Made by a program: the position numbers and the translations under genes
Virus record (IMG/VR): IMGVR_UViG_3300035703_000141
Location: 1-47,615 of that record
Origin: a virus
Direction: 5' to 3' (one strand)
DNA: 47,615 nucleotides
The notes under the pieces: generated by a model
What the model was told of the DNA's origin: nothing
What the model saw: only the letters and a program-made list of their open reading frames with translations
Database searches by the model: none
Shown: one piece after another, positions 6,514 through 46,482 of the stretch
Layout: every line of letters starts with the position of its first letter
Numbering within the stretch: the stretch's first letter is position 1

Positions 6514-6908
6514 GTCAGGTAGGGGTCCGGGGCTAAAATGACCGCCGGATCAAGCCCGAGCTGGGCACACATCGCAATGACGGTCTGGTTATTGTTCCAG
6601 AACCACGCATAGTTGGTCCAGAGGAACTGCTGCTCGGCAGGCAGGCTAGCAATGAGGGTCATTAGATCGGGGAGCTTGCCAGCATCCAGCACGCGGGTGG
6701 TGATCGTGTCCTTGCTGACTCGGTAGGGCGCGGGAGGGGGAATAGGCTTCACCACCCACGCGCAGTTCTCCCACACGGGCGGCTGCTCGGTGGCCGGATC
6801 GTAGCTGGGCGGGGCGGTAATAACCCAGCCCTTGCGCTCCAGATTGGCGATGGCCGTCGGGTCGGTTTCGGCGCGGAGCGCGCAGTCTAGGGTGAGGTAA
6901 GTGGTCAC
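6510..6908 (-). CDS. 132-aa fibre-associated protein (copy 1)
   Basis: Starts MTTYLTLDCALRAETD. Its second half ('VLDAGKLPDLMTLIASLP', then 'WFWNNNQTVIAM', 'QLGLDPAVI') matches the general pattern of short proteins encoded after phage tail fibres (LD.GKL..V...I..LP...Q..W.....F.......I..L...LGL). It may be a fibre chaperone or a fibre-associated subunit. The second copy at 45371-45769 differs at 10 of 132 residues, with many additional synonymous changes, whereas the adjacent lectin genes are almost identical. This copy is followed by podovirus-like genes. Confidence 0.65.
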   Translation of the reverse strand: MTTYLTLDCALRAETDPTAIANLERKGWVITAPPSYDPATEQPPVWENCAWVVKPIPPPAPYRVSKDTITTRVLDAGKLPDLMTLIASLPAEQQFLWTNYAWFWNNNQTVIAMCAQLGLDPAVILAPDPYLT

Positions 6909-7621
6909 GAGCAGGCGATTTTGAAGGAGTAGGCGGCTGATTGCTCAAGGCGGCGGCGAAGCGATGAGGATTGCGCGGTCTCAAATGCGATAAGAAGTCC
7001 CATATCGCCGACAAATTGCAGCACATTGTCCCACGAAGAAGCTCCGACAGTCATCCGGACACTTCCTGATGTAACTCCAGATTGTCCAGAAACACTTGCG
7101 GTTTGACGCGAGCCTCCGTTCAGAAGATATTCTTGATCCCCACTCCCAACCGCCGCTGTTACGGAGTGTATGTTGAAGTTGTCGTTCCTAGTAATAAAAT
7201 TACTGACGGTCGCATTTGTAAAAAGCCCGAATCTACCACCCGAAGCAGAATCGTAATAAAGTTGATAGCGCCGTTGATTGGCAGCCGTGCCTCCGGTCGT
7301 GCCAGCAGATGCGACCAAGGTAGCATTATCAAAGGCGTTGGCGTTGGACCCGCTGCGTTTGTAGACAATGTAAATGGAATATGCTGTTCCGGTTACAAAC
7401 GTCGCATTGTAGAAGTCTCCGCCATCAAATCTAAGAATTGGATTCCCTCCTTGAATCGCCGTCTTGTAAGTTGCCCTTGAACCAGCGGTCGCTTGTGTCG
7501 CATCCCGCGCATTGCCAGAGATGTCTGACCAAGTTTGTACGGTGCTTCCGTCTGATGTGCCAGAGATGTAGCGCGTATCTAGAGCCAAACTAGCTCCGGC
7601 GGCCTTGTAGCTAAAATGTCT
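6856..7621. repeat. long direct repeat, left copy (pairs with 45717-46482)
   Basis: I find no difference between 6856-7621 and 45717-46482, an offset of 38,861 bases; translations in three frames are identical. On one side the 132-aa genes show ~87% identity; on the other a few mismatches, then 7638-7689 matches again before the fibres diverge. Confidence 0.9.
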
Positions 7622-7636
7622 ATGCCGCGACCTCAT
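6905..7636 (-). CDS. LamG/concanavalin-like lectin domain protein (copy 1)
   Basis: A 243-residue protein. After a basic N-terminus, 'LALDTRYISG', 'VQTWSDISGNARDATQ' and 'NPILRFDGGDF' give the opening of a LamG/concanavalin-A-like jelly roll (W.D.SGN..DATQ...P..RFDG). The closing strand region ends 'LRRRLEQSAAYSFKIACS', as in that family. In phages such domains bind glycans on the host surface. It sits directly after a tail fibre (TGATG-type overlap at 7636) and before the 132-aa protein. The copy at 45766-46497 differs in only two residues, S3A and H5Q. Confidence 0.75.
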   Translation of the reverse strand: MRSRHRHFSYKAAGASLALDTRYISGTSDGSTVQTWSDISGNARDATQATAGSRATYKTAIQGGNPILRFDGGDFYNATFVTGTAYSIYIVYKRSGSNANAFDNATLVASAGTTGGTAANQRRYQLYYDSASGGRFGLFTNATVSNFITRNDNFNIHSVTAAVGSGDQEYLLNGGSRQTASVSGQSGVTSGSVRMTVGASSWDNVLQFVGDMGLLIAFETAQSSSLRRRLEQSAAYSFKIACS

Positions 7637-10044
7637 CAGCTCGACGTGTAGGAGATTTCGACGCCAAGGAGGCGGGCGTCCACGGCGAGCGTGTCGCCGC
7701 CCGCGTCCGCGTCGCGGTAGATTTGGAACTGCACGGCTTTGTTTGCGCCGGGCGTCCCTCCGATGGTGATCGCGGAAGTCGCGCCGGAGATCATCATATC
7801 GTTCGCGGCGAGCAGCGTATCCGTCACGGTCTGCGCCGTGCCAGTCGCGGTATCGAGCGCGTCATCGTCGGAGTAGGCAAGCCCCTGCAAGCCCCAGACC
7901 ACGGCGCCGGTGCCGGTCGTTGCGGTCCAGTAAAAGCGCGCGGTCACCTGCCCGGCGTTGTAATTCGTCGGCATCACGACGAGCGCCTGCGCGAACTCAT
8001 CGGTTGCAGCGTCGAAGAGCAGCTGGTCAAAGTTCTGGAGATTGGTCGTCGTCTGCGTCGAGTCCACGCCGACGCCGGTCGTCGTGCGCGGTATCCATTG
8101 TGAAGCCGCAATCCAGAGGTTCGTCGATCCGCCGCCACCTCCGCTCGCCGCGGCCCACGTCGGAGCCGCTCCCGCGCCCTGCGTCTTGAGGAAGTGCCCA
8201 GAGGTTCCAGCAGGCAACCGCGCCCACGAAGTCGAGTCGCGGTAAAGGATGTCGCCGAAGGTCGCGCTCGCGATGGTCAGCTGGTCGAACGTCGGCCGGG
8301 CGTGGACGTGATCGACGCGCGCCGCGGTGACCGAAACGCCCGCGGTGGCCGAGGCTGCGAGCGCCTCGGGCGCCGTGGAGTCGAACAGCTGCCGGTTGCG
8401 CCACGCGGTGATTGAGGCGTTGTACGCCAAAAAGTCATTATTGGCGACGGCGGTGATTGAGACATCGTGGAGCTCGTCGAGCTCGAGCCCATTCTGCACG
8501 TCGACGAAGATGATGCCATCCGCAACGCCCGCTTTTTTCACTACGTAACCGATTCGGACGCCGTGATTCGGCGCGGTCGGTCTTACATTGGTCAAGGCGC
8601 CGGGCGTGGTCGCGGAGAGGTAAAGCGTGTCGCCCGCGTTAAAGGCGTTGGTGTCGATGCCGCGCAGAACGCCCTGCGTGATTATTACGCCGCTGTCGTT
8701 GTCGCCGATTGTCTGCGAGCAGACTCCGAGGGTCTGCGCGGAATTTGGATCGCTGGTCGCTAGCGCCAGCGAAGCCTTGAGGCGCGTGCCGCTGGAGCCG
8801 TCCGCCTTGACCACTTGGCCCTTAGTGAACGCGCTGCCGCTCTGGTTGTAGACCAGCGCGTGCAGATCCATCCCCAGCATCGTCGATGTCGAGGCATTAA
8901 ACCCGAGCTCAAGCGTGGACTCGGTCGCGCTCCAGACAGCCTTTGCCGTCGTGACGGCTACGGTGCTCGAGGTATTGACCGCGAGGTAATCGACCTGCGT
9001 GATCGTGTTCGTCGCGCCGAAGACCGAATCGACCGGGAAGTCGATTGGGTCGCTGCCGCCCACCTCGTGCGTCGAGGCGTGCGCGGTCGGCGTGCGCGAG
9101 TCTGACAGGCGCGCGTCGTCTGCCTGCACAGCCTTCAGCGCGGCGCTCTCGCCTGAGGTCGCGAAGGTCACCACGCCCGAGGCCGTCGTCGTCGCGGCCT
9201 GCTTGATGTTCGCGAAGGCAGCCGTGACGGACGCGACGTCAGTCAGGTTGTTCGCGCCGAGCATATCGCCGCCGCCGGGGATCGATTCCCAGCTGGGCGT
9301 CGTGCCATCCGTCTTGAGGAACTTGCCCGCGTTGCCAGTCTGGGAAGGCAGCGAATCACCGCCGCCGCCACCACCGCCGCCCGCACCGCGCGCCGCGATC
9401 ACGGCCCACTTCGCGCCCTCGCGCCCGATGTTCTTCCGGCCGGGCGTGTCGTTCGTGTCCTCCAGCGCGAGGTAGGTGGAGCCGTACCACGAGAACAGGT
9501 CGCCCCGCTGCGCGACCATACCCTCGCGCCATTGCCCGCGGTACGAGTCGATGAGCGTCGGCGCCGCGGCGAACTCCTGCTTAGGCAGCGCCGCGTTGAC
9601 CGCGTGCTGGATCTCGATGACGAGTCCGCGCTCGAGCTTCTCGATGCGCTCGGCGGCGGCGCCAGTCAGCGCGCCGAGGATGCGCGACTCGATCTGTTCG
9701 GCCGTGACGCCGATCTGTTTCTCGGCCTCGGTGAACTGCTTCGACGCCAGCGCGACGATCTCCGCGCGAACGGCCTCAAGCTTCGTCTGCGATTCGGAGA
9801 GCGCCGCCCGGCAGCGCGCCTCGAGGTCTTCGTTGTACTTTGCGTAGGCGTCGCTGACGAGGCCCGGCACCGCATCGACCAGCCGCGCGTCGAGTTCCTT
9901 GCGGATCTCCGGCACCGTCTTGCCGATGCGCTCGAGCAACTCGTCGAGCGTCTTGTCGTGCTCAACAAGCAGCTGCGCGAACTCCTCCGCGCGCTGGCCC
10001 AACTGCTCGTTGCTGGAGATGATCGCGTCGAGAACGCTGTGCAT
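7636..10044 (-). CDS. tail fibre protein (802 aa)
   Basis: Residues 1-~150 are a long charged helical/coiled-coil region (MHSVLDAIISSNEQLGQRAE...). Residues ~165-225 carry a compact domain ('YRGQWREGMVAQRGDLFSWY') like small carbohydrate-binding domains in fibres, then a run of eight Gly. Next come fibre-type segments ('GNAGKFLKTDGTTPSW', 'DDARLSDSRTPTAHAS') and a C-terminal ~160-residue beta domain starting 'NLWIAASQWIPRTT' and ending '[15 protein letters not shown]'. The same C-terminal domain closes the fibre at the right edge. It follows the portal gene as TGACAATG. Confidence 0.85.
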   Translation of the reverse strand: MHSVLDAIISSNEQLGQRAEEFAQLLVEHDKTLDELLERIGKTVPEIRKELDARLVDAVPGLVSDAYAKYNEDLEARCRAALSESQTKLEAVRAEIVALASKQFTEAEKQIGVTAEQIESRILGALTGAAAERIEKLERGLVIEIQHAVNAALPKQEFAAAPTLIDSYRGQWREGMVAQRGDLFSWYGSTYLALEDTNDTPGRKNIGREGAKWAVIAARGAGGGGGGGGDSLPSQTGNAGKFLKTDGTTPSWESIPGGGDMLGANNLTDVASVTAAFANIKQAATTTASGVVTFATSGESAALKAVQADDARLSDSRTPTAHASTHEVGGSDPIDFPVDSVFGATNTITQVDYLAVNTSSTVAVTTAKAVWSATESTLELGFNASTSTMLGMDLHALVYNQSGSAFTKGQVVKADGSSGTRLKASLALATSDPNSAQTLGVCSQTIGDNDSGVIITQGVLRGIDTNAFNAGDTLYLSATTPGALTNVRPTAPNHGVRIGYVVKKAGVADGIIFVDVQNGLELDELHDVSITAVANNDFLAYNASITAWRNRQLFDSTAPEALAASATAGVSVTAARVDHVHARPTFDQLTIASATFGDILYRDSTSWARLPAGTSGHFLKTQGAGAAPTWAAASGGGGGSTNLWIAASQWIPRTTTGVGVDSTQTTTNLQNFDQLLFDAATDEFAQALVVMPTNYNAGQVTARFYWTATTGTGAVVWGLQGLAYSDDDALDTATGTAQTVTDTLLAANDMMISGATSAITIGGTPGANKAVQFQIYRDADAGGDTLAVDARLLGVEISYTSS

Positions 10045-10046
10045 TG

Positions 10047-12344
10047 TCAGGTGGTGCGGAGGTTCTTAATCTTGGCGCGGCGCTCGGTCACGCTGGCGAA
10101 AAGCGCGGAGAGCTTGTTCTCGGCCTCGGCCTTTTCAGCCAGCATCTTGCGGGCGTCCGAGAGCGAGACGACCGGCGCGGGCGCAGGCACGGGCGCGGGA
10201 GGCTTCGGCTCGAACCCGATGCGCTTGAGCGCCTGCTCGATCTGCGCCTCGGTCTTCGCGTTCTGGCCCAGCTTCTCGCGGACCGCGGAGAGCTTGCTCG
10301 CCTTCTCGGCCAGCTTCTCGAGCGGCTTCTTGGCGCGGTTGCGTCCGGCCTCGAGAGCCTCGCGCACAGTAGCCGGACGGCTCAACTCCTCGCGTTCCAT
10401 CTGCGCGGCCTTGGCCTTCGCCCAGCTGGCCCCGGCGTCGCCGCCCCAGAGCGCCCACGCGATCCGACCCGCGGATGGATAGCCGTCTTCGCCGGGAGAG
10501 AATCCGGTGCCCTGCTTGTCCACCTCGTGCCGCGCGAAGTACGAGACCATACGGCGCACGGTGTCGGGAGAGAGCGACTTCTTGTTCGAGATGTCGCGAG
10601 CGCGAGCAACGCCCACGGCCGTGCCGCCGCGGTTGTGCTTTTCGCGCCACTCGAGCCCGCGGCGCGCCTCCGCGGCCATCGCGTCGGTAGGCGTGAGATC
10701 GATGGCGGCAAAGCGCGCGAGCTCGGAAGGCGTCGCAGGCTGGTCGGGCTCCGAGTCCTCGGGCGTTCCGCTCGAAGCAGCCTGCGCCTCGGCTGAGGAT
10801 TCCCCGACCATCTCGCCAGCGGCAGCGGCAGCAGCCGGAGTCGAAGGCAGCGAATTGGTGACGAGGCGGATCGAGGTTTCGGGGATGCCGTACTTCTCCG
10901 CGAGCTCGCCGACGTAAGCGGCTTCAGCCGCGATCTGCTCCAAGCGCGTGAAGGCGTCGGTGCCTTGCTCAGCCGCAATCTCCTGCAAGGACTTCGCGCC
11001 CTGCCGGTTCTCGTTCAGATTCGCCGCAGAGTCGCGACCGACATCGATGGACAGTTTAGGCGGAAAGCGCCACTCGCCGCGGGTCGCGCGCTTGAGCGCC
11101 TGCACCGGAGTCTCGCCGTCCTGCGTTGCGGGCGCCGGGATCTCGCCGCGGGCGATGCCGTCGAGGATGACCGCGTTCTTGATCGGGTCGAGCACCTTGT
11201 CGGTCAGCACGCCCTGATGGCGGGCGAAGACGCGATCCGCCGCGGCGAACTCGGCGCGCACGCTCGGCCCCTTGTAATTTTGGGTACCGAAAAGCACGCC
11301 CTGCGGGATGCCTACCGCGATGGCGAGCTCGTGCATCAGATGCTCGACGAAGCCGGTAAAGGCAGTCGAAGGCCGCGCGGGCATCGTCTCCACGCGGTCG
11401 GCTTGGCCGAGGTACTTAATCATCCCGACCTCGCTCAACTCGTTCTTCGGCTGCTGTCCGTTCGGGAGCGTCGCGCTCGGCGTCGGAGTGAACAGGTTGC
11501 GCGCGTTGGCGGTCCCGCGGTCGGTGAAGACAAGCGCCGCCTGCTGACTAGCGAACCGCACGCCCGCCTTCTCCGCTTGCAGGATCTCGTGCAGCATCCG
11601 CGCCGTCTGGATGGCCGCGTGGAAGTCGGTCACGCCGCGGTACTGGTCAACGCGGAACGGGTCGTAGTAGTGCGCGAAGTTGCCCGCGGGAACATCCTCG
11701 GCGCCGAAGTAAACGCCCTCGCGCGTCACGCGGTAGATCCGGTAGGCGACAGGCACGCCGAAGTCATCGACGATCACGCCCTCGAAGTAGTTCTCGGAGT
11801 TGCCTCCTTGGTCGTTGGGATTGCCGATGCGGGTCGCCGGGATTAGCTGCACCTTGAGCGCCTCGCCGACGCGGCGGATGACGAAGCCGCAGTCGCCATC
11901 GACCGGCCGGTTCTCCGCGGCCACCTGCACCAGCTTGCGGAACGAGTTGCGGCCGGTCGCGTCGGCGCCCTTGCACCAGTCGTGGAAGTAGTCGCTGACG
12001 AGCCGGTTGTAGTCGCGGTCGCCCGTGCTGGGCGAGTACTCGGTCGGCGTGAGGTAGTTGCCGAACTTGCGGCTGATCTCCTTCACCTCTGGGCAATTCT
12101 CGACGAGGTTCCGCGCCTCCCACATCATCACGACTCGCTCGCGCACCGTCTGCGCCGACTCGCTCGGCTGGCCGTACTGCATCGGCGCGTACAGCCTATT
12201 CGTCTGCGCGGCGTTGTACGAGAACAGCGCCGCCTCGACCCGCGCCTGCATCCGGCGCAGCGCGGCGCCGGGAGCGACGACCTCGAGCGCGCGCTCAAAC
12301 CACGGACGCTGCGAGATGACTTTTGCCGGGTCGAAGGTGTGCAT
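10047..12344 (-). CDS. portal protein, lambda gpB type, with C-terminal extra domain
   Basis: The start is ATG 12344 (MHTFDPAKVISQRPWFERA), 765 residues. The first ~500 residues are a lambda-type portal ('NRLVSDYFHDWC', 'AAENRPVDGDCGFVIRR', 'IPQGVLFGTQNYKGPSVRAE'). The portal forms the dodecameric ring through which DNA enters and leaves the head. Residues ~550-650 carry an added domain with 'ARRGLEWREKHNRGG', 'SPDTVRRMVSYFARHEVDK' and 'GYPSAGRIAWALWGG', then a charged helical tail to the end. The usual lambda portal is ~530 residues, so the extension of more than 200 is notable. It follows the gpW-like joiner. Confidence 0.9.
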   Translation of the reverse strand: MHTFDPAKVISQRPWFERALEVVAPGAALRRMQARVEAALFSYNAAQTNRLYAPMQYGQPSESAQTVRERVVMMWEARNLVENCPEVKEISRKFGNYLTPTEYSPSTGDRDYNRLVSDYFHDWCKGADATGRNSFRKLVQVAAENRPVDGDCGFVIRRVGEALKVQLIPATRIGNPNDQGGNSENYFEGVIVDDFGVPVAYRIYRVTREGVYFGAEDVPAGNFAHYYDPFRVDQYRGVTDFHAAIQTARMLHEILQAEKAGVRFASQQAALVFTDRGTANARNLFTPTPSATLPNGQQPKNELSEVGMIKYLGQADRVETMPARPSTAFTGFVEHLMHELAIAVGIPQGVLFGTQNYKGPSVRAEFAAADRVFARHQGVLTDKVLDPIKNAVILDGIARGEIPAPATQDGETPVQALKRATRGEWRFPPKLSIDVGRDSAANLNENRQGAKSLQEIAAEQGTDAFTRLEQIAAEAAYVGELAEKYGIPETSIRLVTNSLPSTPAAAAAAGEMVGESSAEAQAASSGTPEDSEPDQPATPSELARFAAIDLTPTDAMAAEARRGLEWREKHNRGGTAVGVARARDISNKKSLSPDTVRRMVSYFARHEVDKQGTGFSPGEDGYPSAGRIAWALWGGDAGASWAKAKAAQMEREELSRPATVREALEAGRNRAKKPLEKLAEKASKLSAVREKLGQNAKTEAQIEQALKRIGFEPKPPAPVPAPAPVVSLSDARKMLAEKAEAENKLSALFASVTERRAKIKNLRTT

Positions 12345-12346
12345 TG

Positions 12347-12586
12347 TCAGTTGCCGGTAAAGCTCACGAAGGTCGTGTCGGTCGTGTTGCCGTTCTGGTA
12401 CTCGATAGCGTCCACGATGTTGCCGAGCATCTGGTTCAGCGTGTTCAGATCGGCGCGGGTGACCGACTTGCCGTTGAGCGAGTACGACGTGTTGAGGAGG
12501 CACGCTTGAATCGCGTCCAAGACCTTGGTCTTCAGCACGCCAAGGGTCGCCGCGTCAACGTCGAGAAACGGATTGTCAGCCGCCAT
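12347..12586 (-). CDS. gpW-like head-tail joining protein
   Basis: A 79-residue protein (MAADNPFLDVDAATL...) whose centre 'SYSLNGKSVTRADLNTLNQM' matches the gpW pattern of a short beta hairpin with 'GRSVTR' followed by a helix. In lambda, gpW closes the filled head under the portal. Its place between the large terminase region and the portal agrees with lambda order (A-W-B). The ATG at 12586 follows the ATTTGACG motif by 14 bases. The stop and the portal start are joined as TGACAATG. Confidence 0.75.
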   Translation of the reverse strand: MAADNPFLDVDAATLGVLKTKVLDAIQACLLNTSYSLNGKSVTRADLNTLNQMLGNIVDAIEYQNGNTTDTTFVSFTGN

Positions 12587-12600
12587 AAAGAAGCGGCGCC

Positions 12601-12608
12601 CGTCAAAT
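12601..12608 (-). promoter_or_regulatory. ATTTGACG motif 14 bases before the gpW-like start
   Basis: ATTTGACG, then 14 bases, then ATG at 12586. Here the motif is also the right arm of an inverted repeat CGTCAAA-ACGCA-TTTGACG (12601-12619). Confidence 0.55.
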
Positions 12609-12654
12609 GCGTTTTGACGCTAGACCGAGTCGGGGTACGGAGAATGGCTAAGGA

Positions 12655-13506
12655 TTAAAGCCCGCACATTCCCTCGCACTCGTTCTGGAAAAAGTCCATC
12701 TGGCCCCGCTGGGCGTCGGTGGCAAAGTCCACTTGATCGAGAGGACGCAGCGACCCGTGAAGAAACGGCACGCCGTTCAGATTGTCTGACTTGCGCTTTA
12801 CCTCTTGGAGATTGCGCTCGAACTCCACGGCGCGCCGAAACTCATCTGGCTCCTCTGACTTTAGCCGCCTCCACTCATTGTCGGAATGAAACGGGCAGAA
12901 TACGCAGGCTGAACGAGGCGGCTTTGGAAAGCCCATCTTTTCCATCCAGCGAAGGCAATCGTGCCGCGTCATCTCAGCCTCGATCAAGGGCCATCGATTG
13001 ATTGCCCATTTCTCGCGACTGGGCTTCATCCGCGTTACCTCATCGAGGGAGATTCCTATCCACGTTACAACCCGAGGCTCCTTGCATCCTCTCGGCACGT
13101 TGCCGATCTGCTTTTGTTTCTTGAGTAGTGGCGCAATCTTTTTGTCGGCCGTGCACAACCGGCCCATAATGCCACGAGTTCCATCTGGGTTCGCCACGTA
13201 TGCGGGGACTAAGCTTTTGCTCCACGGCTTGCCCTCTGTCCGAACTCGTGCGCGTAACGTCAAGGACTCCTCAATCAATCCGAGCTTGTCCTGCACGCGG
13301 TACACAGGGAACGGGAGCTTTGTCTCGAGCCAATCCAGCCACTTGTAAACGGACGCAGGCTCGGCTTTGGTGTCGGAAAAGATCGCGGCTTTTGGCATAG
13401 GCAGCAATTCTCCAGCCGCAGCCATCAATGCCATTGTGCTGCTTTGCACTCCGGCTCCTAAGCTCAAGACGTGAACTAGGTTGTCGTGATTCTGAGTCGT
13501 TGTCAT
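12655..13506 (-). CDS. PP-loop (PAPS reductase/adenine nucleotide alpha hydrolase-like) protein
   Basis: A 283-residue protein. Residues ~12-28 hold a PP-loop-like nucleotide site ('VLSLGAGVQSSTMALM') followed by 'AIFSDTKAEPASVYKWLDWL', as in PAPS reductases and related phage enzymes. 'PRSACVFCPFHSDNEWRRL' near residue 200 has paired Cys (C-x-x-C) plus His, and the C-terminus 'CEGMCGL' adds two more Cys, so a metal or Fe-S site is likely. Members activate a substrate by adenylation, often to transfer sulfur. Substrate here is unknown. It lies between the large terminase and gpW, where lambda has no such gene. Confidence 0.75.
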   Translation of the reverse strand: MTTTQNHDNLVHVLSLGAGVQSSTMALMAAAGELLPMPKAAIFSDTKAEPASVYKWLDWLETKLPFPVYRVQDKLGLIEESLTLRARVRTEGKPWSKSLVPAYVANPDGTRGIMGRLCTADKKIAPLLKKQKQIGNVPRGCKEPRVVTWIGISLDEVTRMKPSREKWAINRWPLIEAEMTRHDCLRWMEKMGFPKPPRSACVFCPFHSDNEWRRLKSEEPDEFRRAVEFERNLQEVKRKSDNLNGVPFLHGSLRPLDQVDFATDAQRGQMDFFQNECEGMCGL

Positions 13507-13518
13507 TGTTTGAATTTC

Positions 13519-16572: not shown

Positions 16573-16597
16573 TTACGGACCAAGTTTCTCTTCCGCT

Positions 16598-17368: not shown

Positions 17369-17369
17369 G

Positions 17370-17728: not shown

Positions 17729-17740
17729 TGCCGCGCGCGA

Positions 17741-32344: not shown

Positions 32345-32352
32345 TTAGCACC

Positions 32353-33154: not shown

Positions 33155-33155
33155 T

Positions 33156-34788: not shown

Positions 34789-34790
34789 AC

Positions 34791-35504: not shown

Positions 35505-35505
35505 C

Positions 35506-36282: not shown

Positions 36283-36284
36283 CT

Positions 36285-38632: not shown

Positions 38633-38646
38633 TGCGCTGCGGGACT

Positions 38647-38654
38647 CGTCAAAT
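38647..38654 (-). promoter_or_regulatory. ATTTGACG motif 14 bases before glycosyltransferase start
   Basis: ATTTGACG directly overlaps the TAA stop of the HNH gene (TAATTTGACG) and lies 14 bases before ATG 38632. Confidence 0.55.
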
Positions 38655-39337
38655 TAGACCGTTCGCATCGCCAGATAGAAGTCGACGAGCGGCTCCGGCC
38701 ATAGCCATTGCGGCACCGAGCGAAAGTCCTTGTAGGTCGACGAAACCCAGAATGGCGTCGAGCTCTTCGCGAGGTTCACGTTCGCCGGTAGAACTTGCAA
38801 GTTCTCGTGATGATGAAAGCCGCCGTGCTTGATCGGGATGATGTGGTCGACGTGATGCTCGATGCCGGTCTCCGCGGTCAGCCGCTTTGCCTCCTCGTGC
38901 AGACGTAGCTCGACGATCTCATCGTGCTGCGGATGATGCAGGGATCGCTTGAGCGCGCGACGCTTCGCGGCGCGTTGGCTCCTGCGCTCGGGATACTTCG
39001 CCGACCAAACTTGATTCCGCAGTTTACTTTTCGCGCGAACATCTTCGCGTTTTGCGTAACGAGCTTTTGAATATTCTAAGTACGCCAGACGGTATTCTTC
39101 GGATTTACGGATTTCTCTGATTCGTTCCCGGCAGAGCCTTCGATTGTTTTCTAGAACGGCTGGATCGCTCCATTGTTCTCCGTTGGAATATCCGACGCCA
39201 TATCCGCAAAACACTTTGCCGTCTTCCCTCTTGGTTCCCGCCTTTATCCTCGCGTCCTTATTTGCACGGAGCCACTCGCGCATTTCCTGCGCCTTCGCCT
39301 TTCTCTGCTTAAATCCGATTCCGTGCCAAGGGTGCAT
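38654..39337 (-). CDS. HNH endonuclease (227 aa)
   Basis: MHPWHGIGFKQRKAKAQEMR... with a basic helical N-terminal region and 'IEHHVDHIIPIKHGGFHHHE' then 'NLQVLPANVNLAKSS', the HNH core (H-V-D-H...N...N...K). It starts immediately after the T-tract of a terminator behind the capsid gene, and its 5' half is AT-rich compared with neighbours, pointing to recent acquisition. Probably a homing endonuclease. Confidence 0.85.
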   Translation of the reverse strand: MHPWHGIGFKQRKAKAQEMREWLRANKDARIKAGTKREDGKVFCGYGVGYSNGEQWSDPAVLENNRRLCRERIREIRKSEEYRLAYLEYSKARYAKREDVRAKSKLRNQVWSAKYPERRSQRAAKRRALKRSLHHPQHDEIVELRLHEEAKRLTAETGIEHHVDHIIPIKHGGFHHHENLQVLPANVNLAKSSTPFWVSSTYKDFRSVPQWLWPEPLVDFYLAMRTV

Positions 39338-39371
39338 AAAAAAAACCGACGCCCAGTTAAGGGCGCCGGTT
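39338..39371 (-). terminator. intrinsic terminator after the major capsid gene
   Basis: On the minus strand AACCGGCGCCC-TTAACT-GGGCGTCGGTT forms an 11-bp stem (one G-T pair) followed by about eight T. It lies 20 bases after the capsid stop and would cut transcription into the HNH and glycosylation genes. Confidence 0.85.
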
Positions 39372-39391
39372 TAGTTTAAGCAAACGTATTC

Positions 39392-40357
39392 TTATGCGAA
39401 CTGGGTTGCGATAAGCTGACCCGCGTTGGTGTTGACCACCTTCTCGGCGGTGTACTGCGACGCGCGCACGATGTTGCTCTTGATCGCCTCTTCACGGTAA
39501 GTGAAGACGCCGATGGCGGGACCGTACTCGCTCCAGTTGAGCGTGAACCCGGCGCCGCCGCCGAAGAAGCCCGCGCCGCCCTCGGTGACGGAACCAACCC
39601 AGATGTAGGTATTGGCCCAGACATTCGCCGAGGAGTAGGCGACGCCCTCGGCGGCGGAGTCATAAGCGCTCCGGCCGATCAGCACCTCGGACACGCCGAA
39701 GACTTCAGCGGCGGCCTGCGTGCTGGCGTTGAGGATCGTGTCGCTCGAGATGCCAGCGCCGCGCAGGCGGTTCTGGAACTTGGTCGAGGCGCGGATGCGG
39801 GTCCACACCGGGTACGGGATGACCACGCGCAGGTTGCTCGTGGACTCGCCGTTGGCGATCAGGCGGTCAATCGCCAGCTGCACGTCCTCGCCAACGTCGA
39901 AGGTGGCGATGTTGGCGGTCGTGTAGGCGGTGCCCGAGTTGGTCGAGGTGAAGTTCGACGTGTTGAAGATCTCGGCAGCGACGCGGAGCTCGTGCGCGAG
40001 CAGGAGCTTGCGGCGAGCGAGCTTGGCGGCGATGACCTCGGCGTCGAAGAAGCGCGAGACGTCCGCGGTCACGGTGTCGTCCACCGCCTCCTCGTAACCG
40101 TACTCAAGCGCGTTAAAGGTCTCCTGCGTGTAGGCGCGGGTACCACGCGGGAACGTGGAGTACGGGTCACGCACCTTCACCTCAGACTTCAGCAGCTGAC
40201 CCTGCTGGAGCTTGAAGCTCGGGTACTGACCAGCGCGGACGGGGACGTTGAGGATGGGCATCACGCGCGTGCCGATCAGACTGGTTTCCCAATCTTTGGC
40301 CTGCTCGAGGACGCCAGCGATATCGCCGCGGAAAACCGCAGCAGCGTTGGAATACAT
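39392..40357 (-). CDS. major capsid protein, HK97-fold (lambda gpE-like)
   Basis: A 321-residue protein starting MYSNAAAVFRGDIAGVLEQA. 'YSTFPRGTRAYTQETFNALE', 'EVIAAKLARRKLLLAHELRV', 'LRVVIPYPVWTRIRASTKFQ' and 'EYGPAIGVFTYREEAIKSNI' match HK97-fold capsid proteins of the type that follow a DUF2190-like decoration gene. It forms the icosahedral shell. The order protease/scaffold, decoration, capsid agrees with lambda C-D-E. The start has an A/T-rich leader without SD. Confidence 0.92.
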   Translation of the reverse strand: MYSNAAAVFRGDIAGVLEQAKDWETSLIGTRVMPILNVPVRAGQYPSFKLQQGQLLKSEVKVRDPYSTFPRGTRAYTQETFNALEYGYEEAVDDTVTADVSRFFDAEVIAAKLARRKLLLAHELRVAAEIFNTSNFTSTNSGTAYTTANIATFDVGEDVQLAIDRLIANGESTSNLRVVIPYPVWTRIRASTKFQNRLRGAGISSDTILNASTQAAAEVFGVSEVLIGRSAYDSAAEGVAYSSANVWANTYIWVGSVTEGGAGFFGGGAGFTLNWSEYGPAIGVFTYREEAIKSNIVRASQYTAEKVVNTNAGQLIATQFA

Positions 40358-40376
40358 TGTTAGTAAATTTTAAGGG

Positions 40377-40727
40377 TTAGAAGTTCTTCGGGATGAACTC
40401 GACGACAGCGGCCGTCGTCGAAGTAGTGAGGATCTTGCCCACGGTCACGGTGCCGCTGAGAGCGACCTGACCGCTGGCCCCGGCGAACAGGGTGTCGCCG
40501 ACGGTGATCGGACCCGCGACGAGCTGACCCTTCTGGGTGCCCGGTCCGGTCATAAACTTCACGGTGACGTAATCACCGGAAGCGGCATCGTTCTGCGCGA
40601 CGCCATCGGGACGAGTGCCCGTGGCGGACAGACCGACGCCGCGATTGTTGGAGATCGTGACCATCCGGAAAGCGGTGATCACTTCGTTGGCGAGGAACGT
40701 GCCCGCGCCGAGGTATTGAGTAGCCAT
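40377..40727 (-). CDS. capsid decoration protein (DUF2190/gpD position)
   Basis: A 116-residue protein (MATQYLGAGTFLANEVITAF). 'GVAQNDAASGDYVTVKFMTG', 'ITVGDTLFAGASGQVALSGT' and 'VGKILTTSTTAAVVEFIPKN' match small beta proteins of the DUF2190 type encoded next to capsid genes. They stabilise the expanded head. Confidence 0.85.
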   Translation of the reverse strand: MATQYLGAGTFLANEVITAFRMVTISNNRGVGLSATGTRPDGVAQNDAASGDYVTVKFMTGPGTQKGQLVAGPITVGDTLFAGASGQVALSGTVTVGKILTTSTTAAVVEFIPKNF

Positions 40728-40739
40728 TGCTAGATTTGG

Positions 40740-41693
40740 TTAGAGTTTGATAAGTTCACCGGCCTGCACGCGGGAGCGGTAGGCGGCGTAAAGGTCAGGG
40801 TTGTTCTTGATCGCGAAGGCGATGGCCGCGCCCTTGTCGCCCTTGAGCTCGACGGCCTTAGCGGCAACGACGGCCTCGAACGACTTGGTCTCGTCCTTCT
40901 TCGCGGGAGCCTCGGCGGAAACCGCGGGAGCGGCGGGCGCCCCGATGGTCTTCGCGAACTCCTTCAGCGCGTCGGCCGCGGCCTGCTTGGCAGCGAGCGC
41001 AATCGCGTCGTTATTGGCCGACATCGCGGCGGGCTTGTCTTCGGGCTTGGGCAGCATCGACTCGAGCTTGGCGAGTCGGTCACCCATCGCCATCATCGCG
41101 GACTCGATCATCCCCGCGATCTCCTTCTTGGCATCTTCGTTCATAGGAATAGTGATTTCGATTTCAGGTTTCTCCTCCTCGGACGAATTATCCTCGGAGG
41201 TCTGAAAAGCTTTCATCCGGCGCTCGAACAGCCCGGCCGCGTTGGCCGCGGGCTCGCTCACGAGATCGACCGAATAAATCTCCGTGCAGCGTTGCAGAAC
41301 GGTCCGCTTGTCCGCGCCCATCTCGACCGGACCGGAGAACGCAATCGACAGCCCGAACGTGTCGGGGATCTTCTCCGCGATCTCGAGGACGTAGCCGCGG
41401 TGCGGCGAGTTCTCGAGTAGATGCAGATCGCCAAGCAGCTTTCGGCCCTCGATCCGCAGCGCGTCCACGTAGCCGATGATGTCGCCCGCGCCGCCCGAGT
41501 GATCGAGCTTCACCTTGAGCCCGCCGCTGTACTGCTCCGCCGCGGCCTTAACCTGCTCGAGCGTCTTGCCGTCGATCATCACTCCGTGCCCGAGCGCCGG
41601 GCCTTCGGTGATCAGCGAGACGCCGCGGATCACGCCCGAGGCGGCGTCGATCTGCCCGGCAGCGGCGGCGAAAGTAATGGTGGGAGCGGCCAT
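40740..41693 (-). CDS. prohead protease fused to scaffold
   Basis: ATG 41693 (MAAPTITFAAAAGQIDAASG) gives 317 residues; a TTG at 41714 would add seven. The N-terminal ~170 residues are a protease-like domain ('VKLDHSGGAGDIIGYVDALR', 'HRGYVLEIAEKIPDTFGLSI', 'CTEIYSVDLVSEPAANAAGL'). The rest is acidic, Ala/Lys/Glu-rich and helical, as scaffolds are, starting with 'MNEDAKKEIAGMIESAMMAM', a possible internal start. It guides prohead assembly and then cleaves itself. Confidence 0.82.
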   Translation of the reverse strand: MAAPTITFAAAAGQIDAASGVIRGVSLITEGPALGHGVMIDGKTLEQVKAAAEQYSGGLKVKLDHSGGAGDIIGYVDALRIEGRKLLGDLHLLENSPHRGYVLEIAEKIPDTFGLSIAFSGPVEMGADKRTVLQRCTEIYSVDLVSEPAANAAGLFERRMKAFQTSEDNSSEEEKPEIEITIPMNEDAKKEIAGMIESAMMAMGDRLAKLESMLPKPEDKPAAMSANNDAIALAAKQAAADALKEFAKTIGAPAAPAVSAEAPAKKDETKSFEAVVAAKAVELKGDKGAAIAFAIKNNPDLYAAYRSRVQAGELIKL

Positions 41694-41708
41694 CGCAAAG
41701 GCCGCATC

Positions 41709-41716
41709 CGTCAAAT
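41709..41716 (-). promoter_or_regulatory. ATTTGACG motif 15 bases before protease/scaffold ATG
   Basis: Overlaps the TGA stop of the 84-aa gene (TGATTTGACG); ATG 41693 follows after 15 bases. This supports ATG 41693 over TTG 41714 as the start. Confidence 0.5.
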
Positions 41717-41970
41717 CATTTTCCGGCTTTGACGCCCGAGCCGTCGCGGCGCCGATATGCGGTCACGCGCACGACCTTTTTCGTAATCTCATCCCAGACC
41801 GGGAATTGCGCGACCTCGACGGTCTTGGCGCGGATCGCTGGCCCGAGGAGCACGCGCACATTGTCGACGCTGCACTCCAGCTGCTCGGCCACTTTGTCGC
41901 GCGAATCCCAGCCGGCGGGCAGCACGTAGGTCTTGCGGTTCTGCGCTTCGACGAGGGATTTCCAGTTCAT
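41716..41970 (-). CDS. small HTH-like protein (84 aa)
   Basis: ATG 41970 overlaps the phosphoesterase stop (ATGA). MNWKSLVEAQNRKTYVLPAG... then 'DKVAEQLECSVDNVRVLLGP' reads as a helix-turn-helix, followed by 'PVWDEITKKVVRVTAYRRRD'. Frames further upstream overlie the phosphoesterase. It may regulate or assist the capsid operon that follows; its stop lies inside the ATTTGACG motif. Confidence 0.6.
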   Translation of the reverse strand: MNWKSLVEAQNRKTYVLPAGWDSRDKVAEQLECSVDNVRVLLGPAIRAKTVEVAQFPVWDEITKKVVRVTAYRRRDGSGVKAGK

Positions 41971-42917
41971 AGCTTGAGCAACGCAGCGAAGTGCGACTCG
42001 CCCTCGATGATGGGAATGTTCAGATGCAGGAAGGCGCCGCTCGTCGCGACCAGCTGCACCGCGTAGCCGTGCGACCAATCGGTCGGTGCCGTGTGCTGCC
42101 ATAACGGTTGCAGCTGGCAGAGGCAGCCAGGGTTCCACGCGCCGATGATGCCGGAGGAGATGCGGCGGACGATGTTGCTCTGCGCGCGGTGCGTGTGGCC
42201 GAACACGCAGTTGCCGGCGATCTTGTCGACCGTCGCGCCGACCGCGTTCTTGGCTGTCGAGACGCCGTGAAAGAAGAAGCACTTCCCGCGCTTGATGACG
42301 CCGGGGACCGGCAGGCCGTCGTAGAACTCGCCTTGCCGGTAGTACGCGATGCCGCGCTCCTTGAGCCCGAGCCGGAACTCCGGCGCCAGCAGGCGGCGCA
42401 AGCCCTCGGCGTCCTTCTTGTGCCTGAGCACCTGCGTCACGCACCACGTCTCGACGCGGCGCTCGTGGTTCCCTTCAAGGTACTCGATCTTCGCGCGCGG
42501 CGCCGCGGACTGGAGCGCGTCGAGGAAAGCTTTCGCAGCGGCAAGGTCTTCCTCGTAGGTGTAATCGGTTTCGGCGACATAGCCCATCACGTGATGCTGC
42601 GCCAAAAAGCCGCCGCAGTCGACGTGGTCTCCGAGGAGGATGATCTCTTGCGGGTCCAGCGCCTTGATGTCCGCGAGCATCGCCGCCAGCGCGGGCTTGT
42701 CGATCAGGCAACCGTGCGTGTCAGGGATGACGACGCGGACGATGTCGCTGCCGGACCGGCGCCGCATCGAGGCTGGCGCGGGCATCTTCGTCTTTCGCGC
42801 CTTGGTCGCGTTCGCGAGCGCGGACCGCGCAACCTCGAGCTCCTTTCGCAGGCCCGCGACCTCGGCCTCGTACACCTTGCGGGTCTCGTCCCGCTGGACT
42901 GCGGACCAGTCAGTCAC
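41967..42917 (-). CDS. calcineurin-like metallophosphoesterase
   Basis: GTG start at 42917 gives 316 residues. A coiled-coil N-terminus (to ~50) precedes the two-metal motifs: 'VIPDTHG' (~65), 'LLGDHVDCGG' (~95), 'LEGNHERR' (~150), 'FFFHG' and 'FGHTHRAQ' (~240). It hydrolyses phosphoester bonds; substrate unknown (nucleotide, DNA end or protein). Phage homologues commonly sit near head or lysis genes. It overlaps the upstream membrane protein by 8 bases. Confidence 0.9.
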   Translation of the reverse strand: MTDWSAVQRDETRKVYEAEVAGLRKELEVARSALANATKARKTKMPAPASMRRRSGSDIVRVVIPDTHGCLIDKPALAAMLADIKALDPQEIILLGDHVDCGGFLAQHHVMGYVAETDYTYEEDLAAAKAFLDALQSAAPRAKIEYLEGNHERRVETWCVTQVLRHKKDAEGLRRLLAPEFRLGLKERGIAYYRQGEFYDGLPVPGVIKRGKCFFFHGVSTAKNAVGATVDKIAGNCVFGHTHRAQSNIVRRISSGIIGAWNPGCLCQLQPLWQHTAPTDWSHGYAVQLVATSGAFLHLNIPIIEGESHFAALLKL

Positions 42918-43107
42918 GCTTCGCAGCCTCCTCGGCGTGCTTCGCGTCCTCGCGCTGGGCAATGCGCCAGTCGCGGTGCCAGCGCCAGATCAGGAACGCG
43001 AGCGAGACGACGCCGGTCGCGATGCCGAGTCCTGAGTGAATTTGTCCCGCGGTCACGGTGGCGACCGGAGGAGCGATTGCGGCGACGGCGTCGGCTGGCT
43101 TGATCAT
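42910..43107 (-). CDS. small membrane protein (65 aa), holin-like
   Basis: MIKPADAVAAIAPPVATVTA then one membrane helix ('GLGIATGVVSLAFLIWRWHR') and a charged tail ('AQREDAKHAEEAAKRD'). Similar in layout to 6050-6229. It lies directly downstream of the 3-TM holin, so it may be an antiholin or lysis accessory. Confidence 0.6.
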   Translation of the reverse strand: MIKPADAVAAIAPPVATVTAGQIHSGLGIATGVVSLAFLIWRWHRDWRIAQREDAKHAEEAAKRD

Positions 43108-43116
43108 CGGAGTAAG

Positions 43117-43551
43117 TTACTTGCTGCGCGTCATCTGGTGGCGCACGCCGAGCCAGAAGTAAACGCAGGCAAAGGAGACCGTGAGAATCTCCGGCTGGAG
43201 CCCGGCGAGTTGCTCGGGCGGGCGGGTCCAGATGTAGGCGCACGCGCCCGCGACCATCAGCGGCCGGACCATCTGCGTCGAGAAAGCAGCGATGGCAAGG
43301 AGCCCGTGTTGCCAGCTGGGCGCCGTGGGCGGCGGCGCGTAGGTAGAGCCGAGCGTGCCCTCCACGGCTTTCGCGAACGCCTCGACCTCCGCAATGGCGA
43401 TCTGCTTTTCCTTCATCGCGGCCAGCTCCGCGATCCGCCGCTTGCTCGCGCTCCACTCCTTGAGCTCGCCCACCGCCGACCCGAGCACCTGCGTCAAACC
43501 GCCGAGGATCGTGCCTCCGGCGGCGCTGGCGAGGAAGGAGATGAGGCTCAT
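43117..43551 (-). CDS. holin, 3-TM-like family
   Basis: A 144-residue protein. An N-terminal Gly/Ala-rich helix (MSLISFLASAAGGTILGGLT), a charged coiled middle ('KRRIAELAAMKEKQIAIAEV', 'EAFAKAVEGT') and two C-terminal membrane helices ('TQMVRPLMVAGACAYIWT', 'EILTVSFACVYFWLGVRHQM') match the Holin_3TMs layout. It would permeabilise the inner membrane at lysis. The endolysin is far away at 24545. Confidence 0.78.
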   Translation of the reverse strand: MSLISFLASAAGGTILGGLTQVLGSAVGELKEWSASKRRIAELAAMKEKQIAIAEVEAFAKAVEGTLGSTYAPPPTAPSWQHGLLAIAAFSTQMVRPLMVAGACAYIWTRPPEQLAGLQPEILTVSFACVYFWLGVRHQMTRSK

Positions 43552-43554
43552 TAC

Positions 43555-43716
43555 TTAACTGCCGCTCGGCAAAACCGGCGGCGCTTGGATTGCCTTCGCC
43601 AGCGTCTCAACGGACTGGCGAAGGATGTCGTGCTCCTGCGCCGTACCGCGGAAGGCCGCGGCGACGTGCGCGAGGTTCTGGAGTGCCTGCTCGGGAGTCA
43701 TCGTGTTTTGATTCAC
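43555..43716 (-). CDS. small hypothetical protein (53 aa)
   Basis: The GTG at 43716 (MNQNTMTPEQALQNLAHVAA) lies 14 bases after the ATTTGACG motif; an ATG at 43701 would give 48 residues. The sequence 'AHVAAAFRGTAQEHDILRQS' and a Pro-rich end resemble small proteins next to fibre and holin genes in other phages. Function unknown. Confidence 0.55.
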   Translation of the reverse strand: MNQNTMTPEQALQNLAHVAAAFRGTAQEHDILRQSVETLAKAIQAPPVLPSGS

Positions 43717-43730
43717 GACGCAGCGCGCTC

Positions 43731-43738
43731 CGTCAAAT
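43731..43738 (-). promoter_or_regulatory. ATTTGACG motif 14 bases before GTG 43716
   Basis: Overlaps the TGA stop of the 85-aa gene (TGATTTGACG) and lies 14 bases before GTG 43716, which supports that GTG as the start of the 53-aa gene. Confidence 0.55.
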
Positions 43739-43995
43739 CAGAGCGGGGTCAGGCCAGCGTTGGTGGCGAGGACAGCGTAGAAGGACGCGTCGTCCGTCCA
43801 AGCGTCGGTCTGCGCCTCGGTGGCGTTGACCAGCTGGGCGCTCACCTCCGCACCAGCGGCGTCGAGGAGCACGCAGTCGGCAACGGCGGGGCCGTTCTGG
43901 TAGTTGACATACCGAACGCCAAACTGGGTGGCGGTCTTGGTGCCGCTGGAGGTCCAGACGGATACGGGTTGAATGGAAATAAGCGTGGAGTTCAT
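43738..43995 (-). CDS. small fibre-associated protein (85 aa)
   Basis: MNSTLISIQPVSVWTSSGTK... with 'VRYVNYQNGPAVADCVLLDA' and 'ASFYAVLATNAGLTPL'. It follows the 444-aa fibre and is beta-rich; proteins of this kind often follow phage fibre genes. Its TGA runs into the ATTTGACG motif. Function unknown. Confidence 0.6.
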   Translation of the reverse strand: MNSTLISIQPVSVWTSSGTKTATQFGVRYVNYQNGPAVADCVLLDAAGAEVSAQLVNATEAQTDAWTDDASFYAVLATNAGLTPL

Positions 43996-44004
43996 TTAAT
44001 GAGA

Positions 44005-45339
44005 TTAGCTGTCGGTGGCGATGGTCTTGACGGTGCCGTCGCCGAACTTGACCTTGAGGTCGCCGTCGGCGCTGTCTACATAGATGCGGGCATAGCCGGA
44101 TTCGGTACCGGGAGCGGTAACGCCATCCACAAGGCCGTAGAACGTGCCAGCATTGACAGCCCCCGCCACGCCCACGCCCCCGCTCACCACCAGCGCACCG
44201 CTGGAGGTGGACGTGGAGGCGGTGCTCAAAAGTATTGCGGCATAGGTCGGCCTGACCTCTATAACTTGAATGTTATTCGAAGCAAAAGAAATCGGCCCAG
44301 TTGACGACAACCGCAAATGCTCTGGATACGTCCCATTGTTTTCGTTGAAAAATTGAAGCGTAGAGCTCTTTGTTCCTACGTTAAATCGAAATATGCTGCT
44401 AGCCGAAGCAGAAGTCGACGTATTTACTAGATTCAGCTGAAGCCTCGCGCTTCCGAGTGAACTCGTCGATGTGATCGTGTTTCCTGCAAAAATCGCACCA
44501 GCAACTCCAAGTCCACCGCTAGTTCCGCTTCCTACAATCAACGCGCCACTTGAAGTGCTGCTTGACGAGGTAGTATCTGAAATTGTTAAAGGAGAACTTA
44601 GCGTGCTACTCCAGCTTGCGATTGATCCGTCAGTCGTAAGCAATTTCCCATCATTCCCAGACTGATAGGGAAGAATTGCATTAACATCGGTCGTACTGCC
44701 CCCCGCATTCCCCCCCCGCGAGGCTAGCACTTGCCACTGGTTCGAGTTGCGCGACGGCTTCTCGGTCACGCCATCGACCGCGGCGATGTAGGACGAGCCG
44801 AGCCACGAGACAACGTCGAGGCGGTTGTAAGTCTCGCCGTCAATGAACGTGCCGCGCGGGTTGAGCGACGCACCGGCCGCGCCCGCGGGACCGGGGATCA
44901 GCTGAAGCTTCTTCGCCTCCTCCTTCGCGGAGAACTCCACCCGCTCCAGCTGCGCCGCGAACTGCGCGCCCAGCGTGCCCAGCTGCGTCTGCAAGGCCGC
45001 GATCTCAGAGCGCAGCGCCTCGGCCTCCTGCCCGGCCTTGGCGGCGTTGGTCTCGTCGGCCTTCTTGAGCTCGAGCGCGATGACGCCCACCTGCTCGTCA
45101 ACCGCTTTCCGCATCTCCTCGACCCGCGCGGACAGCGCCCCGAGGTTGTTGTCAAGGACGTGGAATTGCAGCGCCTTGATGCCAGAGAGCGCCGCGGAAA
45201 GCGCGTTCGTCGCCGCCTCAAGCGGGCGCGCCTGCGTCGCGAACTCGGCTTCGAGCTTGTCGGCCTTCGTTTTGACTTCGCCCAGCGTCTCCGCGAGCAG
45301 CAGGAGTTCGTCGGTGGGCGTGGTGAAGTGGGCGCTCAT
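44005..45339 (-). CDS. tail fibre protein 2 (444 aa)
   Basis: Residues 1-~150 are a coiled coil with many Ala/Glu/Leu. A short collagen-like piece 'IPGPAGAAGASLNPRGTF' leads into a domain 'NRLDVVSWLGSSYIAAVDGV', related to the one in the 802-aa fibre. The rest is Ser/Thr-rich with repeated 'TSSGALIVG/VSGG..GVAGA' units and ends in 'DGDLKVKFGDGTVKTIATDS'. A side- or tip-fibre carrying host-binding parts. The leader contains CAA-type repeats. Confidence 0.85.
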   Translation of the reverse strand: MSAHFTTPTDELLLLAETLGEVKTKADKLEAEFATQARPLEAATNALSAALSGIKALQFHVLDNNLGALSARVEEMRKAVDEQVGVIALELKKADETNAAKAGQEAEALRSEIAALQTQLGTLGAQFAAQLERVEFSAKEEAKKLQLIPGPAGAAGASLNPRGTFIDGETYNRLDVVSWLGSSYIAAVDGVTEKPSRNSNQWQVLASRGGNAGGSTTDVNAILPYQSGNDGKLLTTDGSIASWSSTLSSPLTISDTTSSSSTSSGALIVGSGTSGGLGVAGAIFAGNTITSTSSLGSARLQLNLVNTSTSASASSIFRFNVGTKSSTLQFFNENNGTYPEHLRLSSTGPISFASNNIQVIEVRPTYAAILLSTASTSTSSGALVVSGGVGVAGAVNAGTFYGLVDGVTAPGTESGYARIYVDSADGDLKVKFGDGTVKTIATDS

Positions 45340-45370
45340 AGTCGTTGTATTTGTTGCAGTTGTCTAAAGG

Positions 45371-45769
45371 TTAGGTCAGGTACGGATCAGGCGCGAGGAT
45401 GACGGCTGGGTCGAGGCCGAGCTGGGCACACATCGCAATGATGGTTTGGTTGTTGTTCCAGAACCACGCATAGTTGGTCCAGAGGAACTGCTGCTCGGCA
45501 GGCAGGCCCGCAATCAGGCTCATCAGGTCGGGCAGCTTTCCGGCGTCCAGCACGCGGCTGGTTATGGTGTCTTTGCTGACGCGGTAGGGCTCGGGAGGCG
45601 GTACGGGCTTCACCACCCAGCCGCAGTTCTCCCAGACCGGCGGCTGCTCGGTCGCCGGGTCGTAGCTCGGCGGAACGGTGACGACCCAGCCCTTGCGCTC
45701 TAGATTGGAGATGGCGGTCGGGTCGGTTTCGGCGCGGAGCGCGCAGTCTAGGGTGAGGTAAGTGGTCAC
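45371..45769 (-). CDS. 132-aa fibre-associated protein (copy 2)
   Basis: Same family as 6510-6908 (122 of 132 residues equal). It starts inside the lectin gene's end (ATGA-type overlap) and precedes the 444-aa fibre. Its codons follow the GC-richer style of the siphophage region, whereas copy 1 follows the style of the left segment, so each copy fits the genes downstream of it. Probably a fibre chaperone or subunit. Confidence 0.65.
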   Translation of the reverse strand: MTTYLTLDCALRAETDPTAISNLERKGWVVTVPPSYDPATEQPPVWENCGWVVKPVPPPEPYRVSKDTITSRVLDAGKLPDLMSLIAGLPAEQQFLWTNYAWFWNNNQTIIAMCAQLGLDPAVILAPDPYLT

Positions 45770-46482
45770 GAGCAGGCGATTTTGAAGGAGTAGGCGGCTG
45801 ATTGCTCAAGGCGGCGGCGAAGCGATGAGGATTGCGCGGTCTCAAATGCGATAAGAAGTCCCATATCGCCGACAAATTGCAGCACATTGTCCCACGAAGA
45901 AGCTCCGACAGTCATCCGGACACTTCCTGATGTAACTCCAGATTGTCCAGAAACACTTGCGGTTTGACGCGAGCCTCCGTTCAGAAGATATTCTTGATCC
46001 CCACTCCCAACCGCCGCTGTTACGGAGTGTATGTTGAAGTTGTCGTTCCTAGTAATAAAATTACTGACGGTCGCATTTGTAAAAAGCCCGAATCTACCAC
46101 CCGAAGCAGAATCGTAATAAAGTTGATAGCGCCGTTGATTGGCAGCCGTGCCTCCGGTCGTGCCAGCAGATGCGACCAAGGTAGCATTATCAAAGGCGTT
46201 GGCGTTGGACCCGCTGCGTTTGTAGACAATGTAAATGGAATATGCTGTTCCGGTTACAAACGTCGCATTGTAGAAGTCTCCGCCATCAAATCTAAGAATT
46301 GGATTCCCTCCTTGAATCGCCGTCTTGTAAGTTGCCCTTGAACCAGCGGTCGCTTGTGTCGCATCCCGCGCATTGCCAGAGATGTCTGACCAAGTTTGTA
46401 CGGTGCTTCCGTCTGATGTGCCAGAGATGTAGCGCGTATCTAGAGCCAAACTAGCTCCGGCGGCCTTGTAGCTAAAATGTCT
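45717..46482. repeat. long direct repeat, right copy (pairs with 6856-7621)
   Basis: Right copy of the 766-base repeat that covers most of the lectin gene. The flanks change affinity across it: a podovirus-like fibre upstream and siphophage genes downstream, the reverse of the left copy. Confidence 0.9.

Follow-up and report, generated by a model that had tools for sequence, protein, structure and literature searches.

A lectin gene shared between two phage lineages in a probably chimeric viral contig

The stretch of DNA analysed here (the window) is the whole of virus record IMGVR_UViG_3300035703_000141, 47,615 nt without any N. It carries two direct repeats, 6856–7621 and 45717–46482, which an earlier note made from the sequence had called identical and which indeed match at all 766 bases. 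Each copy consists of a lectin gene minus 15 nt together with the first 53 nt of a gene for a 132-aa protein (Table 1). Homology extends past the repeats. On the side of the 132-aa gene, the 300 nt at 6508–6807 and 45369–45668 are 85% alike, and on the other side the 480-nt fibre ends next to the two copies are 64% alike; the two fibres have related C-terminal domains of ~160 aa, encoded immediately ahead of the lectin gene. The DNA between the repeats is referred to as siphophage S and the DNA outside them as phage P.

Table 1. Positions of the principal features in the window of 47,615 nt
Feature	Positions	Strand	Remarks
Phage P, downstream of lectin	1..6855		P-type relatives
P Gln-rich protein	3..1583	-	17.1% Q; open at contig end
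P nozzle-like protein, 727 aa	2595..4778	-	weak PHROG matches; 57 related loci
132-aa protein, P version	6510..6908	-	
Repeat copy 1	6856..7621		P-type DNA left, S-type right; 766/766 vs copy 2
Lectin gene copy 1, 243 aa	6905..7636	-	predicted beta-sandwich, tailspike-like; PHROG 10356 virion structural protein, 7.8e-14
Siphophage S	7622..45716		with one repeat copy, a 38,861-nt circle; gene order as in G001; cos site
S fibre, 802 aa	7636..10044	-	C-terminal domain related to that of P fibre
S portal protein, 818 aa	10047..12503	-	PHROG 21, 6.9e-43
S terminase large subunit, lambda gpA type	13519..15324	-	GpA_ATPase 1.9e-22, GpA_nuclease 3.1e-11 (Pfam)
Presumed S cos site GGTTGCAAGACC	16620..16631	-	internal, intact, single occurrence in window
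S exonuclease VIII-like nuclease	21471..22304	-	PHROG 412, 4.3e-64
S RecT-like annealing protein	22910..23569	-	PHROG 561, 6.2e-35
S central tail fibre J	25609..28764	-	PHROG 31, 3.2e-67
S major head protein	39392..40357	-	PHROG 1005, 1.9e-29
132-aa protein, S version	45371..45769	-	
Repeat copy 2	45717..46482		S-type DNA left, P-type right; 766/766 vs copy 1
Lectin gene copy 2	45766..46497	-	99.5% nt to copy 1; differences confined to first 15 nt
Phage P, collagen-like fibre region upstream of lectin	46483..47615		contig ends inside fibre gene
P collagen-like fibre	46497..47615	-	open at contig end

The inner part had been described as a complete siphophage, and PHROG and Pfam matches identify the terminase large subunit (TerL), portal, scaffold, major head protein, tape measure, distal tail protein and J. 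Tape measure, tube, distal tail protein and J make up a long-tail gene set, in which the tube match falls just under the Pfam cut-off. A RecT-like protein, as the note had proposed (its Pfam RecT match is below that family's cut-off), an exonuclease, a replication initiator and DnaB are also encoded between the repeats. A named protease was not recovered: the 324-aa gene preceding that for the scaffold gave no hit in PHROG or Pfam. Two further genes may be mentioned. A PAPS reductase-like gene (12655–13506, minus strand) lies between those for TerL and portal and has a relative in L130 alone among the best 80 of 170 portal loci. A glycosyltransferase-like gene of 571 aa (36917–38632, minus strand) stands amid the structural genes and is also found in relatives such as G001, G002 and G006.

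In the linear window the capsid gene lies on the far side of S from the portal gene. As had been claimed, the order of the relatives is regained once the inner part is closed on the repeat, with portal, fibre, lectin and capsid genes in one unbroken run. By arithmetic, the portal–capsid distance in the closed circle is 8.55 kb, compared with 4.7–11.8 kb in all 16 loci that have both genes (13 distinct contigs). The portal search drew on the best 80 of 170 loci. Most loci in the analysis reach at most 10 kb to either side of the query, such that longer gaps and remoter composites could escape it. G001 (37,049 nt) has the gene order of S with a different cut point, and its fibre, lectin and 132-aa genes follow one another unbroken; the PAPS reductase, 274-aa and HNH genes of S in the window found no match in G001.

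The presumed cos site GGTTGCAAGACC opens 22 distinct S contigs, with an offset of 1 nt in one case, is present at both ends of G001, and has an internal position in L083, L103, L110 and the window. G002 (35,496 nt) has GGTTGCAATACC at its start and end. We read these shared 12-nt termini of G001 and G002 as cohesive (cos) ends, which would be single-stranded overhangs. Together with the gpA-type terminase, such fixed ends point to S as a lambda-like cos siphophage. Because the motif occurs once in the window, S amounts to one genome length.

The outer parts had been called podovirus-like. They do represent a separate phage lineage; a short-tailed virion was not confirmed, as the nozzle-like protein has weak PHROG matches only. 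Its profile found no PDB match by sequence. In the P record G010, none of ten chosen proteins matched a tape measure family, with six of these ten matching nothing. A short tail is plausible for P. TerL and head protein of G010 fall in PHROG 2 and PHROG 1328, those of S in PHROG 15 and PHROG 1005. Phage C75C1, a circular relative of P with 39,484 nt, has a nozzle protein that is 36% identical. The glutamine-rich protein reported from the outer part is present, and the small proteins described as basic are so in four of five candidate ORFs (pI 9.5–12.0), the fifth having a pI of 8.0. An ORF of 78 aa (6210–6446, minus strand) contains an LSGC box, which we take to be a lipoprotein-like lipobox, and overlaps small ORFs between 6050 and 6513; this region could comprise lysis genes of P, spanin-like in character.

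When the two outer parts are joined via one repeat, the 132-aa gene lies 1.7 kb from the nozzle gene, and the distance is 1.7–3.2 kb in all 14 loci with both genes (13 contigs). In L010, L165, L173 and L160 the fibre end, lectin, 132-aa gene and P genes succeed each other without interruption, and the P-side fibre end of the window is 96.7% identical in nucleotides to P contig L173/L196.

The earlier note proposed that the window is a composite of two phages through a shared lectin gene, and this is borne out by the unbroken order of each half in its own relatives. The difference in base composition to which it pointed is likewise found. GCGC occurs at 4.3/kb in the outer parts versus 18.3/kb in the inner part, and positions 1–6855 (GC 0.593, GCGC 4.5/kb) are below every inner slice tried (slices of 6855 nt in steps of 200 nt; minimum GCGC 12.4/kb, minimum GC 0.600). 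The same division is seen in six relative records, with 4.3–5.1/kb in three of three of P-type and 16.2–18.7/kb in three of three of S-type. No locus holds both S structural and P genes among 183 with any match, in a tally that omits fibre-like and generic genes because they occur in both types, and no record carries both nozzle and portal among the 12 searched whole. A single homologue with the full gene order of the window, the finding that would have spoken for one phage, thus did not appear in either set. On trees, the fibre end beside copy 1 sits in a set of rows that are all of S-type (support 100/99), and the one beside copy 2 adjoins the P row L196 (97%; support 100/99). The fibre ends are imperfectly sorted by type, in that the P rows L175 and L207 lie among S rows. 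Both window copies of the 132-aa gene are nearest to P row L185 and not placed by type, and the assignment of the halves therefore relies on the fibre ends and the outlying genes.

The earlier note left the choice between an assembly chimera and a true cointegrate undecided. The evidence favours the former, and we put at roughly nine in ten the probability that the contig arose in assembly as a chimera of two unrelated phages, S and a probably short-tailed P, that coexisted in the sample and carried the same lectin allele. The shared 766 nt would exceed the word of a short-read assembler, and in the assembly graph S would have formed a loop attached to the path of P at this stretch. The assembler may then have walked from P through the repeat, S and the repeat again back to P, unrolling the loop. 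At all eight sizes tested from 31 to 767, the window has the same k-mers as P joined via one repeat plus the S circle, and the two sets differ at 768 and 900. Since the k-mers are the same either way up to 767, short reads cannot force the linear reading. These k-mers, the lack of both gene sets together in any locus or record examined and the probably excessive length of a cointegrate are what favour a chimera, which would be less likely if the window came from long reads. The internal cos site indicates that S DNA was joined across cos in the sample; it also fits intracellular, recombining DNA.

A variant of the chimera, whose odds are not additive to it, is that the two lectins were merely similar and were merged to a consensus, with a true identity below 100%. 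Assemblers merge near-identical strains, and one pair of lectins from the two lineages (L160/L163) is 97.1% identical rather than 100%. Against this, pairs at 100% do exist in separate metagenomes, and many differences would presumably have split the graph. We consider the variant less likely than not, with odds of about three to one against it. Far less probable is that the contig is a real recombination intermediate, in which crossing-over at the common lectin inserted an S circle into P within one co-infected cell, giving P-S-P with two lectin copies. The topology and the identical copies are what a single crossover would leave, the genes of S include one for a RecT-like protein and one for an exonuclease, and cos is joined in the window. 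However, no examined locus or record has both gene sets, and the cointegrate would measure ~78 kb (38.9 kb plus ~39.5 kb, the size of C75C1), compared with 35.5–39.5 kb for relatives read as complete. At twice the size of these relatives, it would hardly be packageable and probably too long for either capsid. It also requires the shared lectin, which is itself sufficient for a chimera. If true, such an intermediate would capture unrelated phages in the act of exchanging the lectin. That a single real lineage has S-like and P-like blocks in constant order in one genome is suggested by the contig itself and is highly improbable, considering that S makes up a complete genome equipped with head, tail and packaging genes of its own, that GCGC and GC divide as in the separate relatives, and that the relatives of each half hold their own unbroken order.

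The chimera draws attention to the sharing of the lectin in other contigs. P contigs L165/L173 and S contigs L166/L167 have lectins that are 100% identical in nucleotides next to fibre ends at 67% and 132-aa genes at 85%. P contig L160 and S contigs L163/L164/L068 share the lectin at 97.1%, with fibre ends at 67% and 132-aa genes at 90–91%. In both groups the P and S members come from different metagenomes, as judged by contig names. Near-identical lectins in separate S-type and P-type contigs make it unlikely that the shared gene is an artefact, and the sharing between the lineages looks real. In the 100% group and the window, the drop in identity on the fibre side comes within ~80 nt of the lectin, and the other edge lies inside the 132-aa gene. 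The edges are softer in the L160/L163 pair, in which the first ~130 nt of the lectin are 86–88% alike. The last ~50 nt of the fibre are 86–98% alike in the cross-type pairs. The window's allele turned up nowhere else; a search with the exact peptide gave two loci, the nearest at 59% protein identity.

The 132-aa gene was followed in 50 loci (53 minus the short and weak L225–L228, plus the genome contig L229), 27 of which are S, 13 P and 10 neither. L214 and L216 were counted as unassigned because a generic gene is their sole S mark, and L186 was counted as P on its fibre; the genes upstream of L186 match P contig G009. Four of the 50 loci were dropped for want of a lectin ORF, leaving 48 rows including the window copies. 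An MRxRxRH start is found in 34 of these, which were used for the GC comparison and the trees; the other 14 have something else there or a gene that was not recognised. The 34 lectins, window copies included, fall into 25 alleles at 90%, and among their 561 pairs 15 are at least 90% identical, one is at 71% and 545 are below 70%. Three alleles are present in both lineages, the window's included. Mean GC is 0.486 for the lectin versus 0.623 for the fibre end and 0.627 for the 132-aa gene. Changes between S and P labels number 3 on the tree of fibre ends and 4 on that of the 132-aa gene, each as low in none of 500 shuffles. The lectin tree has 5 changes, a value reached in 129–151 of 500 shuffles. 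Such shuffles are lenient, because near-copies cluster labels by themselves. At the level of sequence, the lectin, unlike its neighbouring genes, ignores phage lineage, which argues for a receptor-binding cassette exchanged between a siphophage lineage and a lineage of probably short-tailed phages.

The lectin model is a beta-sandwich (mean pLDDT 69, pTM 0.76) whose best VIA-align 2 match is the tailspike of cyanopodophage Pan3 (PDB 9vyh; Z 19.5), over 220 residues at an rmsd of 3.4 and with 12% sequence identity. The lectin profile found no PDB match by sequence. Pfam Laminin_G_3 was matched by 2 of 17 lectin members (E up to 0.05, best 0.0016) and not by the window's protein, and the one match in a phage collection, 57 residues long at 40%, belongs to a gene of an Aphanizomenon phage that bears the name alpha-L-arabinofuranosidase. 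The predicted fold is thus that of a ConA-like beta-sandwich lectin or tailspike. Fold matches to toxin-binding domains were set aside as shared lectin-like folds only. The phage collection yielded no match to the 132-aa protein and the PDB no useful one; the protein's fold matches are weak and viral, one of them named tail fiber assembly-like, and it possibly has a role in fibre assembly.

The lectin probably occupies the tip of the fibre, docked on the ~160-aa terminal domain, where it would bind a surface sugar, as suggested by its fold, the place of its gene and its PHROG category. Phages meeting in one host would exchange the lectin by homologous recombination, perhaps helped by the putative RecT. 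Over 27 rows, of which the window is one, mean identity is 0.90 in the first 12 nt of the lectin, 0.59–0.88 in the first 120 nt of the 132-aa gene and 0.53–0.67 in the last 120 nt of the fibre (ungapped). The low identity of this last segment over all alleles counts against a simple model of a conserved socket.

Receptor-binding exchange across morphotypes is already known. According to the excerpted text of PMC10579305, the Alteromonas phages A5 (a schitovirus), V22 (a myovirus) and P24 have a common host-recognition module, which resembles the present case in being a homologous receptor-binding module in morphologically distinct phages. Their fibres are described there as 35% similar, with ten syntenic genes and transfers held to be old, whereas S and P share a single lectin gene at 97–100% DNA identity between lineages. 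The depolymerases of Klebsiella podovirus KP34 and siphovirus KP36 have a related receptor-binding domain, ascribed to horizontal transfer in the excerpts of PMC8262889; it is 42% identical in amino acids and lies within one protein, while the lectin is a separate gene with identical copies. In E. coli tailspikes, receptor-binding domains are swapped across genera and the anchor stays, with recombination-aiding motifs mentioned in the portion of PMC10408124 at hand. There the exchange is of domains, mostly in named phages and prophages, in contrast to a stand-alone gene in uncultured phages. In phage assembly, repeat regions can lead to fragmentation and to chimeric contigs (PMC10563150, in excerpt); compared with that excerpt, the repeat here is a gene that two unrelated phages have in common, and its copies enclose an entire phage. 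Among the literature matches listed, mostly from non-subscription sources, there was no earlier report of an identical lectin in siphophages and podophages of metagenomes. Nor did the matches listed include a false genome arising from a DNA-identical stand-alone lectin between uncultured lineages.

The record is unfit for use as one genome, as this would credit the siphophage with foreign virion genes on top of its own and with a wrong genome size. At the same time, the presumed assembly artefact reveals a receptor-binding cassette that appears to be swapped between unrelated phages. Lectins identical in nucleotides across lineages (in one allele group) and from separate metagenomes suggest that the lineages have probably encountered each other in common hosts not long ago, and S-type and P-type phages with the same lectin probably use the same receptor. 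Cross-lineage identity of the lectin could be a marker for common hosts and for how fast receptor-binding genes are exchanged among uncultured phages.

Several minor observations concern relatives of the module. In G021, the contig of L169, the portal homologue (27731–30052) has one in-frame TGA, attributable to a frameshift, an error or recoding. The nearest lectins to the window's, at 59% of amino acids, are those of L003 and L004, and they too stand after a related fibre end; no recognisable 132-aa gene follows the lectin in either, and two of eight proteins in L004 have a PHROG match. L229 (1461–1856), a 3.4-kb contig from the bin of an Oxalobacteraceae pond MAG, carries the fibre–lectin–132 module; this lone genome match is too weak for naming a host. 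Finally, L197, L200, L209, L213, L214, L216, L221 and L224 are contigs of 40–64 kb with the 132-aa gene and with no S or P core genes in the stretch examined. No portal was found in the whole records of these loci (L221 apart), and distant nozzle-like proteins (32–34%) occur among those seven in L197, L200 and L214 only. This suggests that several long unlabelled loci are further phage types with the module, some of the unlabelled loci being short.
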